Shown here in pieces: positions 58,272 through 63,262 of a DNA stretch of 64,000 nt (the stretch's first letter is position 1; each line of letters begins with the position of its first letter). Source of the stretch: Erythrobacter sp. JK5. Its GTDB lineage: Bacteria > Pseudomonadota > Alphaproteobacteria > Sphingomonadales > Sphingomonadaceae. The position numbers were made by a program, and so were the translations under genes. The notes beneath the pieces are model-generated. The model worked only from the letters and a program-made list of their open reading frames with translations. It was not told the origin of the DNA and did no database searches. The DNA lies in assembly GCF_018205975.1 (NCBI RefSeq), contig NZ_CP073577.1, forward strand, positions 3,162,001 through 3,226,000, read 5' to 3'.

Positions 58272-58931
58272 TTACCAGCGGATCAGCGGCGGGACCGCGA
58301 TACGGCCCAGGATCGCACCGATCGCGACCGGCGCGATATGGACGATGCCGACGTGGGTCACGGTATCGAGCGGGCAGGTGATACCGTAGGCGAGCGATCC
58401 GAGAGAACCAGCGGCGATACCCGTCAGCCACCCCGCACGCTCCAGTGAAACCGGCGCTCCGCGACGCAGGAAATGCACCGCAGCCCCGGCCACCAGCAGG
58501 CCCGCGACCAGGCCATAGGCCGAGCATTCCCAATACCACATGACGGGTCCGGCGCGCCTGCTCGTCACGGTCGACAGCAACGAGAGCAGACCCGCAACCG
58601 GCAAAACGCCGATCATCGCGGCAGCCCAGACGGTCGATTCCGCGCGCGAACCCACGCGCGGCAGAGCCGAAGCGACCAGCGCCGCCGTACTTGCCGCGCC
58701 CAATACGGTCAGCAGCCCGTTGGCGATCCAGAAGTATCCCGATGCTTCGCCCGAAACCATGCCGGTCCAGAACCCGAAATAGGCGATTGAAGCGACCCCC
58801 GCGATCAACGTCGCAAGGCCGACAAACGTCGCTCCCTGAACCGGTTTGACCCGTACGACGGGGGTCAGATCATCCGTCAGAGCGGCAATCAGGTCTTCCC
58901 TGCTTCCTGTACGGTATGCGTGCTTTTCCAT
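58272..58931 (-). CDS. NrsF-type anti-sigma factor (DUF1109)
   Basis: 219 residues with six predicted membrane segments, from FVGLATLIAGVASIAYFGF to LRWGAILGR-like text, and a short cytosolic N-terminus (SREDLIAALTDDL). This is the DUF1109/NrsF family, membrane anti-sigma factors that hold an ECF sigma factor and release it under stress. Cys136 (MWYWECSAYG) and Cys186 (GITCPLD) match the pair of cysteines thought to sense metals or oxidants in Caulobacter NrsF. It starts 1 bp after the sigma-factor stop. Confidence 0.9.
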   Translation of the reverse strand: MEKHAYRTGSREDLIAALTDDLTPVVRVKPVQGATFVGLATLIAGVASIAYFGFWTGMVSGEASGYFWIANGLLTVLGAASTAALVASALPRVGSRAESTVWAAAMIGVLPVAGLLSLLSTVTSRRAGPVMWYWECSAYGLVAGLLVAGAAVHFLRRGAPVSLERAGWLTGIAAGSLGSLAYGITCPLDTVTHVGIVHIAPVAIGAILGRIAVPPLIRW

Positions 58932-58932
58932 A

Positions 58933-59463
58933 TCAATCTGCTTTCTCGACCAGGGTGGCCAGTTTCTTGAGGCCACGATGGATATTTACTTTGACCAAGC
59001 TCTCGCTCTGGCCGGTCTTTTCTGCGGCTTCGCGGATCGACAGTCCCGCGATCTTGACCAGCTCGATTACTTCGGCCTGCTTTTCGGGTATGAGGCCAAA
59101 CAGGCGATCGAGACTCACGCGCGCCATGACGAGTTCTTCCTCGCTGTCTTCGACCGCATCGTCTTCCATCAGCTCCTTGCTGTCGTGCTTGTAGACCTTG
59201 CGCAGGTGATCGACCCAGCGATAGCGCGCGATGGCCGCAAGCCACGGCAGGAACGGGCGGGCCGGATCCCAGGTCGCGCGCTTGGTGTAGAACGCGGTCA
59301 GCACCTCCTGAACCAGATCGTCGATCTGGTGATGCGGGACCCGGCGGCTGAAATACCGTTCGAGCCACACCCCCACCTCGGTCAGCAGCACGTTGGCAGC
59401 GGCCTTGTCGCCACCTTGCGCTGCCACCATGAGGCGGGACAATGTGGGTTCGTCGGCGACCAT
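58933..59463 (-). CDS. ECF-family RNA polymerase sigma factor (SigF-like)
   Basis: 176 residues. Region 2 has HQIDDLVQEVLTAFY and WLAAIARYRWVDHLRK (core promoter recognition helix); region 4 has GLSIREAAEKTGQSESLVKVNIHRGLKKL (core REAAEKTGQSESLVKVNIHR), a helix-turn-helix for -35 recognition. ECF factors direct RNA polymerase to stress promoters. It lies between DoxX and the DUF1109 gene with no gaps, so all four genes from the peptide to the anti-sigma factor form one transcript. Two matching promoters lie upstream (see those entries). Confidence 0.93.
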   Translation of the reverse strand: MVADEPTLSRLMVAAQGGDKAAANVLLTEVGVWLERYFSRRVPHHQIDDLVQEVLTAFYTKRATWDPARPFLPWLAAIARYRWVDHLRKVYKHDSKELMEDDAVEDSEEELVMARVSLDRLFGLIPEKQAEVIELVKIAGLSIREAAEKTGQSESLVKVNIHRGLKKLATLVEKAD

Positions 59464-59937
59464 CTACGCGGCCTTCGGCCCCGCGAACCTGGCAACCAGC
59501 GCATCGAGCGAGAACATCCCGCCGCCGCGGCTGATCAGGATCGCGGCGAGCGCGATCACGGTGATGGCCCAGCCGAAGAAGTGTGCCGCATCGGGAAACA
59601 CGAACAGCTGAATGACGATCGCCATGATCATCAGGGCAAGCGCCGAGAACCGCGTGGCGAGACCTGCGACCAGCAGGATCGGAAACAGGAATTCCGCATA
59701 GGTCGCCATCGGCACCGCCAGATCGGTCGGGATGGGCAGCCCCGAAAATTCGTTCTCGAAGATAAAGTACTGGGTTTCATCGATCTGCAGCCACGTGCCC
59801 TCGATCACCTTGGTCTGGTACGAGCGCCAGAAGATTCCTGCCAGCGCAACGCGGGTGAAAAGCAATGCGATGCTCTCCGCAAGCCTGCCGGACAGAAACC
59901 CGGTCAGGCGCTCGTACATTGAAACGATACCGCTCAT
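59464..59937 (-). CDS. DoxX family membrane protein
   Basis: 157 residues with four membrane segments: LFTRVALAGIFWRSYQTKVI, MATYAEFLFPILLVAGLATRF, ALALMIMAIVIQLFVFP and WAITVIALAAILISRG. Conserved polar motifs include FWRSYQTK and AEFLFP. DoxX proteins are found in many operons and may act as membrane electron carriers; in bufferin loci one accompanies the peptide. It abuts the sigma-factor gene (stop and start touch) and follows the peptide gene by 31 bp. Confidence 0.88.
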   Translation of the reverse strand: MSGIVSMYERLTGFLSGRLAESIALLFTRVALAGIFWRSYQTKVIEGTWLQIDETQYFIFENEFSGLPIPTDLAVPMATYAEFLFPILLVAGLATRFSALALMIMAIVIQLFVFPDAAHFFGWAITVIALAAILISRGGGMFSLDALVARFAGPKAA

Positions 59938-59968
59938 AGTGTCCTCCTAATTTGCCTGAGTGCGCGTC

Positions 59969-60256
59969 CTAGCGCTCGATCGGCTTGAGCGATCCTTTGC
60001 CCTTGGGCGTTTCGATCGTCACGCAAGTGCCCTTGTCGACGTATTTCCACGCGTTGCCCTGATAGTCGCGGGTCGACGTGCCGGAGCAGCTGGTGCCCGG
60101 ACCTGCGGCGCAATCGTTCTTGCCGGCCTTGGCAACGCCGTAGCATTTTTCCTTGGCTGGCGCCTTCTGCGCGGCGGCGGGGCTGGTGGCGAGACCCGCG
60201 GCGATTCCCGCAGTAAGGGCAACGCCGGCGAGATTGGCGAAAGTCTTGGCATTCAT
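59969..60256 (-). CDS. Small exported four-cysteine peptide, DUF2282 (bufferin BufA type)
   Basis: 95 residues. A Sec signal peptide (about 1-30, cut near AAAQ) is followed by a short mature part rich in Gly and Lys with four cysteines: Cys38 ([13 protein letters not shown]), Cys49, Cys57 (TSCSGTS) and Cys78 (KGTCVTIET). This is the DUF2282 pattern. In Caulobacter such peptides (bufferins) are post-translationally modified on cysteine by an MNIO enzyme and bind copper; here the MNIO gene is divergent 0.4 kb away. ATG 60256 has GGAG at seven bases. First gene of a four-gene operon. The modification is inference. Confidence 0.88.
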
Positions 60257-60317
60257 GTCGTGTCTCCAGAAAACTCTGTTGGGTGTCGTCCGGTTCTTTG
60301 CCGGAACTGACCGGTGG

Positions 60318-60343
60318 TTCGCATGCGATGGCCACGTGGTTAC
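60318..60343 (-). promoter_or_regulatory. SigF-type ECF promoter of the bufA operon
   Basis: On the minus strand GTAACC (60343-60338) is followed by exactly 16 bases and CGAA (60321-60318). The pattern equals the known Caulobacter SigF promoter consensus GTAACC-N16-CGAA. The -10 box is 62 bp before the peptide ATG, giving a leader of about 55 nt. Confidence 0.8.
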
Positions 60344-60388
60344 AAACTTTCGCAATTTGTCGCCGCCGAACCGCCTCAACTCTCAACT

Positions 60389-60414
60389 GTAACCCGTCAT
60401 AAGGAAATGACGAA
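60389..60414 (+). promoter_or_regulatory. SigF-type ECF promoter upstream of the MNIO gene
   Basis: GTAACC at 60389-60394, 16 bases, then CGAA at 60411-60414, on the plus strand. It is divergent from the other site, 46 bp between their -35 elements. The -10 box is 215 bp before the MNIO start, so the leader would be about 205 nt long. Confidence 0.75.
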
Positions 60415-60508
60415 CCCGTCAGCGTGAGTTTGGACACCGGTTGGAGCGACCCCGTTCGGATCGGTCAACGCATATGGCGGCGCGCGAGATTCATGCTGCG
60501 CTCGTCAA

Positions 60509-60593
60509 GACAGTCCGGAAATGCCGATCGCGACGTGGTCACGATATCTGACCCCCTCCAGTGGACGCGGCACGAAAAGCATTCCGGACTGTC
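60509..60593 (+). repeat. Long inverted repeat in the leader of the MNIO gene
   Basis: GACAGTCCGGAAATGC (60509-60524) pairs with GCATTCCGGACTGTC (60579-60593), with one extra A, around a 54-base loop. It sits between the SigF-type promoter and the MNIO start, so it would fold in the transcript leader. It may be a regulatory RNA structure or remnant of an element. Confidence 0.55.
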
Positions 60594-60628
60594 AACCATT
60601 TCGCCCGACTTCTGCTATGGAGACCCCG

Positions 60629-61492
60629 ATGACGCAGCAGCATGATTCCATCGAGCCTTTCGGCGGTTTCGGTCTCGGCCTTCGGCGTACGCATTACGAG
60701 GATTTTCTCGAGCACGACGTAGCGGTCGATTTCGTCGAGGTGATCAGCGAAAACTACATGATCGAGGGCGGGCGGCAGCTGCGCATCCTCGAAGCCGTGC
60801 GCGCCCGGTTTCCCGTCATCATTCACGGCGTGTCGATGTCGATCGGATCTGCGGAAGGGCTCGATCCCGACTACCTCTCCAAGCTCAAGCGGCTGGAGCG
60901 GCGGATCGATCCGCTGTGGGTCTCCGACCACCTGTGCTGGACCCGCACCAGCGCGCACAACAGCCACGATCTGCTGCCGATGCCGCTGACCGAAGAAGCA
61001 CTCACGGCAGTGTGCTCCAATATCGACCAGGCTCAGGAAACGCTGGGCCGCGCGATGCTGTTCGAAAACCCTTCGAGCTACCTGACCTTCCCGGAAGACG
61101 AACTGACCGAGTGGGAATTCCTGACCGAGATGACCCGGCGCACGGGTTGCTACCTGCTGCTCGACGTCAACAATATCTATGTCAGCGCGGCCAATCACGG
61201 ATTTTCGTCGGAGAAATACCTCGCCGGATTGCCGCTCGACCGGGTGCGGCAGATTCACCTCGCCGGCCACGATCCGGCAACGCCCGAACGCGACATCATC
61301 ATCGACACGCATGACCGAGAAGTCGCCGACGATGTGTGGGCGCTGTATGCAAAGACGCTGGCGATGCTGGACGAGCCGGTCGCGACGATGATCGAGCGCG
61401 ACGCCCACATCCCGCCACTTGCCGAATTGCTGACCGAGCTTGACCGGGCGCGCGGCCTTGCCAGCGAAGCGCGCGAACCCGTCCCGGCATGA
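60629..61492 (+). CDS. MNIO family (DUF692) multinuclear non-haem iron enzyme, BufB type
   Basis: 287 residues, a single TIM barrel like MbnB and other DUF692 enzymes. These use two or three iron ions and O2 to modify cysteines of small peptides. Candidate metal ligands are His66 (IIHGVSM), Asp100 and His101 (VSDHLCW), Glu146 and Asn147 (FENPSSY), Asp179 and Asn181 (LLLDVNNIY), His210 and His214 (IHLAGHDP), His228 and Glu256 (IERDAHIPP). All expected positions are filled. ATG 60629 has GGAG at six bases. The next gene overlaps it by ATGA. Substrate is most likely the divergent four-Cys peptide; this is inference. Confidence 0.92.
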   Translation: MTQQHDSIEPFGGFGLGLRRTHYEDFLEHDVAVDFVEVISENYMIEGGRQLRILEAVRARFPVIIHGVSMSIGSAEGLDPDYLSKLKRLERRIDPLWVSDHLCWTRTSAHNSHDLLPMPLTEEALTAVCSNIDQAQETLGRAMLFENPSSYLTFPEDELTEWEFLTEMTRRTGCYLLLDVNNIYVSAANHGFSSEKYLAGLPLDRVRQIHLAGHDPATPERDIIIDTHDREVADDVWALYAKTLAMLDEPVATMIERDAHIPPLAELLTELDRARGLASEAREPVPA

Positions 61493-62280
61493 GCGCAACG
61501 ACGCTCGCAGAGCGACAGGCCGCATTCATGCGCGCGATCCTCGACGAGGGCGCACCGATGCCCGAGGGCTGGGGCAATTCGCAAGCCGCCGGGATGGGCG
61601 TCTATCGCGGCAATTATCGCAGCGCCCTGATGGATGCGCTCGCCAGCACCTTCGAACGCACCGCGCGCTATGTCGGCGAAAACGCATTCAAGCGGGCCAG
61701 CGCGCACCACGCGATCTCGCATCCCCCCTCGGGCTGGACGATCGACGAGGCAGGCGCGGGTTTCGATATGACCTGCGCCGAGCTTTTCGGGGAGAATCCC
61801 GAAGTGGCCGAGCTTGCCTGGCTTGAATGGACGATGCTGCAGGTTTCGACCGCGGGCGATGTCTCGCCGCTCGATCCGATCGGTTTTGGAACGCTCACGG
61901 CGGACTTCGGCGATGAGGACTGGATGGGCTTGAAGTTTGATTTCCAGCCTCGTGCGACGGCTACAGTGGTCGAATACGATCTCACCGGCCTGTGGAGCGC
62001 GCTGGAACACGACGGGCCGGATCTGCCACCGTTGCGCCTCCCGGCCCCGCGCGGATGCGTGGTTTCGCGAGAAGGCGAGCGCCCGGCCTTCATGTTGGTC
62101 GATCTCGACCGCGCCAACGCCTTCACCGCGATGCAGGCAGGGGCGAGTTACGGCGAGATAATCGCATTGCTGGCGGGCGATGACGCAGGCGAGGACGAGG
62201 TGCAGAGGGCCGCGATGCGTGCGGGCGAAATGCTGGGGGAATGGCTTCAAGAGAAATTGATCATAGGCCTGAAAGCTTGA
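61489..62280 (+). CDS. DUF2063 family partner protein, BufC type
   Basis: 263 residues. The N-terminal DUF2063 domain shows AAFMRAILDEG, MGVYRGNYRSALMDALASTFERTARYVG (core VYRGNYRSALMDALASTF), and AHHAISHPPSG; the second half has AGAGFDMTCAELF and AELAWLEWTMLQV. Such proteins (MbnC, BufC) bind the precursor peptide for their MNIO partner. ATG 61489 overlaps the MNIO stop by ATGA, so the two are translationally coupled. No DNA-binding motif is seen, although the family is sometimes annotated so. Confidence 0.9.
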   Translation: MSATTLAERQAAFMRAILDEGAPMPEGWGNSQAAGMGVYRGNYRSALMDALASTFERTARYVGENAFKRASAHHAISHPPSGWTIDEAGAGFDMTCAELFGENPEVAELAWLEWTMLQVSTAGDVSPLDPIGFGTLTADFGDEDWMGLKFDFQPRATATVVEYDLTGLWSALEHDGPDLPPLRLPAPRGCVVSREGERPAFMLVDLDRANAFTAMQAGASYGEIIALLAGDDAGEDEVQRAAMRAGEMLGEWLQEKLIIGLKA

Positions 62281-62323: not shown

Positions 62324-63262
62324 ATGCTGACCGATACATCGATCGAATTGCGCACCACCCGGGCGAGCATGCTGTTGCGCGCCGTCGTCTGGCTGATGAG
62401 CAAGCGCAAGCCGGTCTTCCCGAAGCAGGCGAGCGAAGCGAAAACCTATCTCGAACTGCGCGACCCGCCGCGCGATGCCGCCATGCCGGAAAGCATGGAG
62501 CAGCGATTCACCGTGGAGCACTGGACGGCAGCAGAGCAGCAGGTCGTGACGATCCATCCGAAATCCGGCCCGGGCGAATGGCACATGCTGTACTTCCACG
62601 GCGGCGGCTTCGTATTGCCGATGTTCAAGGAACACTGGCCGCTCGCCGCAGCGCTGGTCGAGAAGTGCGGTATCAGCATCACCCTGCCGCTTTACAACGT
62701 CGTTCCCGAAAGCAGCTACGCCGATCAGGACGCGGTGGCCGATGCGGCATTCGCCAGACTGGCGGCAGAACACGACCCGGCCAGAATCGTCCTCAACGGC
62801 GACAGCGCGGGCGGGCACATGGCGTTGAGCCTGGCCTTGCGGCTCGCGCGCGCCGGAGGTCCGCAACCGGGCAAGCTCGCGCTGTTCGCGCCGTGGCTCG
62901 ACGTGACGATGCAGGACGAAGCGATGCGGGCGGTCGAACCGCACGATACCATGCTCAGGATCGACGCTTTGCGGGAGCTGGGGCGGGTCTGGGCCGGCGA
63001 TCGCGACCCGGCTTCGCCGGAATGCAGCCCGCTCTACACCCCACCCGAACAGTTGGCGCAGCTGCCGCCGACGCGTATCTGGACCGGACGGCACGATCTC
63101 TTCATCATCGATTCCCGTACCTTCACCGCAAGGCTGCGTGAAGCCGGGGTAGACGCCCGGCTTTATGAATACGCAGGCGCTCCGCATGTCTTCATGGCGG
63201 TTACTCCCACGCGCGAGGCAAAGGATGTGTTCGCGTTGCTGGAAGAATTCCTCGCCAGCTAG
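62324..63262 (+). CDS. Alpha/beta hydrolase, hormone-sensitive lipase-like
   Basis: 312 residues. Oxyanion-hole motif YFHGGGFVLP, nucleophile elbow NGDSAGGHMALSLA, catalytic Asp in TGRHDLFIID and His in GAPHVFMAV, all expected of the HSL (family IV) esterases. It probably hydrolyses short acyl esters; substrate unknown. It starts 44 bp after the DUF2063 gene, with GGAG nearby, and shares CTAG with the convergent SDR gene. Confidence 0.92.
   Translation: MLTDTSIELRTTRASMLLRAVVWLMSKRKPVFPKQASEAKTYLELRDPPRDAAMPESMEQRFTVEHWTAAEQQVVTIHPKSGPGEWHMLYFHGGGFVLPMFKEHWPLAAALVEKCGISITLPLYNVVPESSYADQDAVADAAFARLAAEHDPARIVLNGDSAGGHMALSLALRLARAGGPQPGKLALFAPWLDVTMQDEAMRAVEPHDTMLRIDALRELGRVWAGDRDPASPECSPLYTPPEQLAQLPPTRIWTGRHDLFIIDSRTFTARLREAGVDARLYEYAGAPHVFMAVTPTREAKDVFALLEEFLAS

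Follow-up and report, generated by a model that had tools for sequence, protein, structure and literature searches.

A sigma-F-type bufferin locus without BufA2 in Erythrobacter, and a candidate lipoprotein precursor encoded elsewhere in the genome

Background

Bufferin loci encode ribosomally synthesized and post-translationally modified peptides (RiPPs) together with MNIO-family enzymes, and the Buf1 genes of Caulobacter belong to a SigF regulon that is induced by copper and whose sigF::Tn5 mutant is copper-sensitive (PMC8224329; for this and every other paper cited, statements refer to the accessible part of the text). Here, we describe a bufferin-type locus at positions 58272 to 62280 of a 64,000-nucleotide stretch of the Erythrobacter sp. 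JK5 genome (contig NZ_CP073577.1; hereafter the window). We find that the enzyme belongs to a clade associated with a six-cysteine precursor, BufA2, that this precursor is missing, and that the sigma-F-type promoter motif of the locus recurs ahead of an unlinked gene for a lipoprotein relative of the remaining four-cysteine precursor. With a probability of roughly two in three, we read the locus as the core of a sigma-F-controlled, copper-buffering bufferin regulon in which BufA2 has been lost and one enzyme pair serves two Buf1 precursors.

In Caulobacter, sigF-nrsF and the Buf1 genes CC3254-3257 are transcribed separately, each unit from a sigma-F promoter of consensus GTAACC-N16-CGAA, and replacing the cysteines of NrsF raises sigma-F-dependent expression (PMC3511200). 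Caulobacter Buf1 bears cysteine-derived thiooxazoles, and bufferin loci are described as having a strict bufABC order and tandem precursors, with sigma-factor and NrsF genes in Buf1 and not Buf2 loci (PMC12452194). About 16% of Buf2 bufferins have lipoprotein signals (PMC12452194), and because RiPP-lipoproteins, among them DybA and some lipidated bufferins, have been described (PMC12636315), lipidation by itself is no novelty. The fate of precursors encoded away from any MNIO is stated to be unknown in PMC12452194, and how MNIOs choose their precursors is only starting to be worked out (PMC13097082).

Organization of the locus

The locus comprises six genes in two divergent arms, as a sequence-only reading of this DNA had proposed; the open reading frames (ORFs) and Pfam families agree with that description.

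58272..58931, minus strand: nrsF, membrane anti-sigma factor (Pfam NrsF, 106.6 bits, cut-off 26.8)
58933..59463, minus strand: sigF-like gene for an extracytoplasmic function (ECF) sigma factor (Sigma70_r4_2, 46.4 bits, cut-off 25.7; Sigma70_r2, 39.3 bits, cut-off 24)
59464..59937, minus strand: doxX/bufD, DoxX-family membrane protein (Pfam DoxX, 50.5 bits, cut-off 23.6)
59969..60256, minus strand: bufA1, four-cysteine DUF2282 (Buf1) precursor of 95 amino acids (DUF2282, 86.3 bits, cut-off 22.4)
60318..60343, minus strand: sigma-F-type motif GTAACC-N16-CGAA of bufA1-doxX-sigF-nrsF, exact
60389..60414, plus strand: sigma-F-type motif GTAACC-N16-CGAA of bufB-bufC, exact
60415..60628, plus strand: leader of 214 bases, where relatives carry bufA2
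60629..61492, plus strand: bufB, MNIO enzyme (MbnB_TglH_ChrH, 353.8 bits, cut-off 25; NCBIfam MNIO_BufB NF050167, 373.4 bits, cut-off 310)
60776..60778, plus strand: codon of Gln50 (Pro in 123 of 125 BufA2-bearing relatives)
61403..61405, plus strand: codon of Ala259 (114 of 125 BufA2-bearing relatives have Asp), adjoining Asp258, the presumed catalytic residue
61489..62280, plus strand: bufC, DUF2063 partner protein (Pfam DUF2063, 57.4 bits, cut-off 27.2)

The starts of nrsF (58931), bufA1 (60256) and bufB (60629) were chosen from the sequence and differ from the longest-ORF starts. Together the genes hold what characterizes a Buf1 locus (a four-cysteine DUF2282 precursor, a BufB-type MNIO, a DUF2063 partner and a DoxX protein) and a SigF/NrsF system (an ECF sigma factor, an NrsF (DUF1109) partner and GTAACC-N16-CGAA promoter motifs). 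By family assignment the locus is thus a bufferin-type RiPP locus, an already known kind, in agreement with the sequence-only reading. The exported four-cysteine peptide of that reading also holds: BufA1 has exactly four cysteines, at 38, 49, 57 and 78, and its N-terminus, judged by eye, resembles a signal peptide. Two other kinds of MNIO locus were excluded, as the enzyme scores 80.9 bits against the MbnB equivalog of methanobactin loci (cut-off 325) and 250.4 bits against the HvfB-type equivalog of oxazolin loci (cut-off 360). The DoxX protein falls below the HvfX equivalog cut-off (45.5 versus 80 bits), and NrsF below that of the Caulobacter-type NCBIfam equivalog AntiSigF_NrsF (39 versus 300 bits). 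The genome is a single contig of 3.34 Mb, 99.99% complete, with one MNIO match, and the closest named MNIO records, from uncultured Erythrobacter, show at most 86% identity.

The divergence of precursor from enzyme, which had been singled out as the distinguishing feature, turns out to be common. In a family survey of 199 genomes (an MNIO match in 69, a DUF2282 gene in 66), 37 of the 73 DUF2282 genes within 6 kb of an MNIO gene are divergent from it and 36 lie upstream on the same strand; 29 of 102 DUF2282 genes are unlinked. The peculiar features are the missing BufA2 and the unlinked lipoprotein precursor, both of which, like the promoter motifs, lie beyond the sequence-only reading.

Absence of BufA2

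Relatives that share the divergent layout have a six-cysteine bufA2 gene at the head of the plus arm, and a BufA2 precursor ahead of the MNIO is what characterizes Buf2; the window locus has no such gene. Among ten proteins scanned against a BufA2 model, the seven with six cysteines scored 99.5-107.6 bits (cut-off 60); across the whole window genome nothing exceeded the cut-off, bufA1 itself scoring 19.7 bits. The idea that a remnant of bufA2 persists in the 214-base leader was rejected, as blastn among the collected loci gave no noteworthy match.

Most of the genus shares this absence. Of the 48 divergent loci compared in a genus survey of 100 genomes (an MNIO match in 60), 12 carry BufA2, with 661-736 bases between bufA1 and the MNIO gene, and 36, the window included, lack it, with 299-567 bases between the two. 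BufA2 status in the genus was taken from a profile scan because a motif-pattern scan misses several known BufA2 genes (it also gave no MNIO motif for 13 of the 34 family loci and for 1 of the 48 in the genus); for the family and named loci it comes from profiles built here, not from NCBIfam. In 41 of the 199 family genomes a protein exceeds the 60-bit cut-off of the BufA2 model. By the profiles built here, 71 of the best 80 named loci for this enzyme have a bufA2 gene; these 71 come from Sphingomonadales as well as from Pseudomonas, Cupriavidus, Massilia, Luteibacter and Dyella. Seven of the nine named loci without it are Erythrobacter; L272 and L319 are loci at which the profile detected no bufA2.

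Both precursor types accompany a single MNIO in the stretch at 56 of the 80 named loci, and at 37 of these 56 hybrids sigF, nrsF, BufA1, BufA2 and one MNIO occur together, a combination absent from the accessible text of PMC12452194. Same-strand bufA1-doxX-bufA2-MNIO-bufC operons with one MNIO occur at L266, L268, L269, L282, L285 and others, with examples in Dyella, Pseudomonas and Cupriavidus; a sigF match lies nearby at only one, L314, of the 17 same-strand hybrids with a single MNIO.

In a quick tree of 61 MNIO rows, drawn from 46 of the 48 genus loci, 11 further loci of the family and 4 from other groups, the BufA2-less enzymes nest within the BufA2-bearing ones. One group, with a Shimodaira–Hasegawa-like approximate likelihood-ratio test (SH-aLRT) value of 93, holds 30 of the 34 BufA2-less rows and includes the window; G204, G241 and G239 form a separate BufA2-less group (SH-aLRT 95) among BufA2-bearing rows, and G202 stands alone. 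BufA2 presence needs three changes on this tree, only one of which is forced by well-supported branches, and on this reconstruction the losses are few independent events.

Two genomes look like natural losses of the system: G253 (L325) carries bufA1 and bufA2 on opposite strands and G200 (L363) a DUF2282 match with an internal stop, each with no MNIO match in the genome. The bufB leader of the window contains an exact 12-base inverted repeat (GACAGTCCGGAA, 60509-60520 and 60582-60593), perhaps a small mobile repeat, and folds somewhat better than shuffled sequence (z -2.1); among 35 genus leaders scanned, inverted repeats of at least 10 bases occur only in G287 (13 bases, of different sequence) and G269 (10 bases). 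On the far side of bufC, 43 bases downstream and on the same strand, lies an alpha/beta-hydrolase gene (Abhydrolase_3, 62324-63262) that shows no indication of belonging to the system.

Sigma-F-type promoter motifs

The motifs of the two arms lie on opposite strands and point apart, with 45 bases between them. They are the only matches to GTAACC-N15..18-CGAA in the 64 kb, both with N16 and both in the bufA1-bufB intergenic region, against a chance expectation of 0.11 and two matches in none of 100 shuffles. Genome-wide enrichment of the pattern was rejected (19 matches versus 24 for a backward control), and therefore only its position ahead of genes counts. Of 35 BufA2-less genus loci scored, 32 have an exact bufA1-arm site and the other 3 a site with one mismatch. 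On the enzyme arm 7 of the 35 sites are exact, 26 have one mismatch, 1 has two and 1 has three, and in all 26 the single mismatch falls on the sixth base of GTAACC. BufA2-bearing genus loci have an exact enzyme-arm site in 11 of 12 and an exact bufA1-arm site in 5 of 12. Mononucleotide shuffles of the BufA2-less regions (n = 700) gave no exact and six one-mismatch sites.

Because the motifs are conserved across the genus and rare in shuffles, both arms are very probably controlled by the SigF-like sigma factor, in line with the control by sigma factor proposed from the sequence. The finding that would have refuted that reading, orthologues with peptide and enzyme unlinked or lacking common regulation, does not occur in the genus: the divergent pair is kept at 48 genus loci, and most of the 47 scored keep the motif with at most one mismatch on both arms. 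The putative autoregulated circuit is supported by the exact motifs on both arms; in Caulobacter, neither chromium nor cadmium brings about strong self-induction of sigF (PMC3511200). The enzyme-arm promoter may often have been weakened following the departure of BufA2, its exact form being retained in the window.

Nine exact N16 motifs occur in the whole genome. Four precede bufA1, bufB, the lipoprotein DUF2282 gene and a YHS-like lipoprotein gene, and three lie inside ORFs. An exact motif also stands 77 bases ahead of a pyridine-nucleotide-disulphide oxidoreductase gene (L038), and another precedes by 30 bases an ORF (L040) that looks exported and has no Pfam match; both are weak candidates for sigma-F promoters. 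MsrP/YedY, a sigma-F target in Caulobacter, was rejected as one here: in the 300 bases upstream of the assumed start of the sole Oxidored_molyb gene every site has at least three mismatches, and a site with a single mismatch is over 1 kb upstream.

Unlinked lipoprotein genes

Two genes elsewhere in the window genome carry the motif.

G000:C1:2374188-2374541, plus strand: second DUF2282 gene, lipoprotein Buf1, 848 kb from the MNIO gene
G000:C1:1133632-1134183, minus strand: YHS-like lipoprotein gene (locus L037), exact sigma-F motif 44 bases upstream

The second DUF2282 protein consists of a lipobox (MNTTRIKGSIALAAAAGLAAAC), a linker and a four-cysteine core, and shares 62% identity with BufA1 over 87 residues; an exact sigma-F motif ends 63 bases before its ATG. 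The genus holds 44 unlinked DUF2282 genes (more than 3 kb from any MNIO match), 37 of which encode lipoproteins, and an exact motif lies 55-84 bases ahead of the ATG in 32 of the 37; of the controls (36 genes scored), the other strand gave 0 exact sites in 36 and shuffles 1 in 720. Each of the 36 lipoproteins parsed has four cysteines after the lipobox, and the lipobox cysteine is followed by Ser in 34 and by Gly in 2; under the E. coli +2 rule these residues would point to the outer membrane. Lipoboxes were called by pattern and by eye; in the counts, G221 (L359) was added from a later reading, L363 (G200) gave no result, L325 contributes two records and L350 was unparsed.

An unlinked DUF2282 gene is present in 33 of 36 BufA2-less and 4 of 12 BufA2-bearing genomes (Fisher's p = 1.6e-4, kinship ignored). 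Three of the latter four genes encode lipoproteins, and because some genomes thus carry both BufA2 and the lipoprotein, the comparison suggests that the lipoprotein bufferin predates the loss. Lipoprotein DUF2282 genes are common beyond the genus as well, but an exact motif accompanies only 3 of the 18 scored there, so the regulon claim is limited to this lineage. At L153, L154 and L155, in other genera, a lipoprotein DUF2282 gene directly precedes a soluble bufA1 in a same-strand Buf1 operon, and the pairing of an anchored with a soluble Buf1 therefore recurs.

The YHS-domain match of the L037 lipoprotein is weak (26.7 bits, under the cut-off of 30.3). Matches of at least 64% identity occur in 38 of the 100 genus genomes, and any match in 51. 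At the best 30 of the 38 loci, the sigma-F motif is exact in 20 and has one mismatch in 10; the other strand gave 0 exact and 1 one-mismatch site, and 600 shuffles 1 exact and 9 one-mismatch sites. The 38 genomes with this gene and the 37 with a lipoprotein bufferin overlap in 35, which may in part reflect shared ancestry. A full-text literature search found no paper in which a YHS-like lipoprotein and DUF2282 appear together. The YHS-like lipoprotein, whose gene has the promoter motif of the locus, may take part in the system.

The MNIO enzyme

The window MNIO belongs to the BufA2-associated clade, a Buf2 character, with Ala rather than Asp at residue 259. Nine BufA2-less pairs gave ratios of non-synonymous to synonymous substitution rates (dN/dS) of 0.042-0.084 and five BufA2-bearing pairs gave 0.044-0.077, and the BufA2-less enzymes keep 76 of 78 near-invariant MNIO columns; by these comparisons the enzyme is under purifying selection despite the absence of BufA2, with no decay. 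Since the enzyme is conserved though BufA2 is gone, some substrate must remain, and the two DUF2282 peptides are the obvious candidates because they stand under the same sigma-F motif.

Residue 259 was a prior lead, mapped onto the window enzyme from PMC13097082, in which the MNIO residue adjoining the catalytic Asp is Phe in Lys-Cys enzymes and Asp in Cys-Lys (BufA2) enzymes; that Asp is modelled opposite the substrate lysine, and the residue is unconserved in DUF2282 MNIOs. The solved relative 3bww has Phe at the aligned position. Among BufA2-bearing enzymes, Asp259 occurs in all 12 from the genus, 39 of 42 from the family and 63 of 71 from the named loci; when the five duplicates between sets are taken out of these 125, it occurs in 110 of 120 sequences. 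None of 28 same-strand Buf1-type enzymes has it, and 18 of these have EWDT where the window enzyme has ERD at the catalytic Asp. BufA2-less enzymes have Asp in 16 of 34, Glu in 12, Gly in 4 and Ala in 2, the window being one of these (Asp259 versus BufA2, Fisher's p = 8.6e-8, kinship ignored). On the tree, residue 259 changes seven times among BufA2-less rows, more than any other of the 147 columns with no more than two changes among BufA2-bearing rows. A second position, found post hoc, is residue 50: Pro remains in 1 of 34 BufA2-less enzymes, the others having Gln (28), Met (2), Ala (2) or Ser (1), and it is also replaced in the separate group of G204, G241 and G239. The sole keeper, G263, is an assembly with 7% contamination. 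The changed positions may touch the substrate.

Model and alternative explanations

From the observed genes, conserved promoter motifs, BufA2 absence, co-occurrences, residue changes and purifying selection we infer the following course of events, placed in copper stress by analogy with Caulobacter. In resting cells, NrsF would keep SigF at the membrane; metal stress, sensed through the two NrsF cysteines as the Caulobacter work suggests, would free SigF to fire the two divergent promoters of the locus and promoters elsewhere in the genome. The minus arm would yield BufA1, DoxX and further SigF and NrsF, and the plus arm BufB and BufC. This BufB-BufC clade normally stands directly behind BufA2; with bufA2 lost in this Erythrobacter lineage, the pair would now most likely modify four-cysteine Buf1 precursors only, BufA1 and, in trans, the lipoprotein Buf1. 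Both would be modified in the cytoplasm prior to export; once in the periplasm they would bind copper, one as a soluble product and the other membrane-anchored, in the outer membrane if the +2 rule holds.

More tentatively, the locus may record the retargeting of a RiPP enzyme: a BufB2-type MNIO re-tuned at residues 50 and 259, once its cognate precursor was lost, to Buf1 precursors, including, in trans, the lipoprotein encoded 848 kb away. With soluble BufA1 and the YHS-like lipoprotein under the same sigma factor, it would make up a dispersed, two-compartment copper-buffering regulon on one enzyme pair. An alternative that we also hold to be quite possible, if somewhat short of even odds, departs from the regulon reading only on this re-tuning. 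According to it, the MNIO of a hybrid ancestor already modified both BufA1 and BufA2, the loss of BufA2 left its job unchanged, and the residue changes reflect relaxed constraint or drift. The 56 of 80 named loci at which both precursors share one MNIO, Pseudomonas and Cupriavidus included, speak for such dual specificity, as does the unchanged dN/dS; the exchange of Pro50 in 33 of 34 enzymes, by Gln in 28, looks more like replacement than drift, though largely within one clade. We think it improbable that the four-cysteine precursors are not substrates at all, with the enzyme acting on another, unrecognised peptide and BufA1 and the lipoprotein serving as plain thiol metal binders. The membership of the enzyme in a BufA2-associated clade would suit that explanation, and PMC12452194 leaves room for unmodified precursors away from an MNIO, but no BufA2 in the genome exceeds the cut-off, four of the nine exact motifs lie ahead of bufA1, bufB and the two lipoprotein genes, and Caulobacter Buf1 bears thiooxazoles made from cysteine (PMC12452194). 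Rather unlikely, in our estimate, is that BufA2 loss, lipoprotein bufferin and YHS-like lipoprotein are independent traits of one large Erythrobacter clade, brought together by shared ancestry only. The small number of independent events and the single group of 30 of 34 BufA2-less rows are what would be expected of it; against it, the lipoprotein bufferin and YHS-like genes each have a sigma-F motif at unlinked places, and the separate group of G204, G241 and G239 has both genes, albeit with three lipoprotein genes that lack the motif.

Several observations weigh against the regulon reading and its extension to retargeting. The link between BufA2 loss and the lipoprotein is nearly without independent replicates because the tree needs three changes and forces one; it comprises 1-3 independent pairs, for which a sign test is uninformative. 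The motif is missing from 5 of the 37 lipoprotein genes, including three in the G204/G241/G239 clade; G250, G244 and G203 (70, 72 and 90% complete) lack BufA2 and have no detected unlinked DUF2282 gene; G293 (88% complete) carries the lipoprotein and no MNIO match; and the lipoprotein could be an unmodified four-cysteine protein. The motif is exact on the enzyme arm at only 7 of 35 BufA2-less loci and on the bufA1 arm at only 5 of 12 BufA2-bearing loci. As for the enzyme, dS is saturated in several of the pairs compared (up to 1.4 and 2.5), residue 259 ranks sixth among 136 conserved columns by frequency alone, and the 16 BufA2-less enzymes that retain Asp259 include all three of G204, G241 and G239.

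Our literature search on this arrangement, whose coverage excluded most subscription papers, found nothing. Erythrobacter offers a candidate four-unit sigma-F regulon and, in one genus, a single enzyme, a lost cognate precursor, two remaining candidates, close relatives that retain BufA2 and two residues that can be swapped.

Comparison with known systems

Caulobacter sigF-nrsF together with CC3254-CC3257 (Buf1) has the same six gene families and the same promoter consensus as the window (PMC3511200, PMC8224329), and the two NrsF cysteines are 50 residues apart in both (136 and 186 in the window; C131 and C181 in Caulobacter, PMC3511200). The copper role put forward in the sequence-only reading is probable by this analogy with the copper-induced SigF regulon (PMC8224329); its single-operon picture of Caulobacter was mistaken (PMC3511200), and its interpretation as a whole is partly supported. 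In Caulobacter, precursor, MNIO, DUF2063 partner and DoxX form one unit and sigF-nrsF another, whereas in the window precursor, DoxX, sigma factor and anti-sigma factor share one arm and enzyme and partner the other. The bufA-bufB-bufC order (PMC12452194) is accordingly broken, bufA1 being divergent from bufB-bufC. Caulobacter also has a second sigma-F-controlled precursor-MNIO-DUF2063 operon, CC2907-2905 (PMC3511200), whereas the window genome has its one MNIO match.

With the Buf2 cassettes (BufA2-BufB2-BufC2, with Cys-Lys MNIOs; PMC13097082) the window shares an enzyme that nests in the same clade; it differs in that BufA2 is gone and the lysine-facing Asp is replaced by Ala. DybA and the lipidated bufferins (PMC12636315), and likewise the Buf2 bufferins with lipoprotein signals (PMC12452194), resemble the window-genome lipoprotein as MNIO-family precursors with a lipobox. 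In contrast to these, the lipoprotein described here is of Buf1 type (DUF2282), has no linked MNIO and has its sigma-F motif in common with the enzyme locus.

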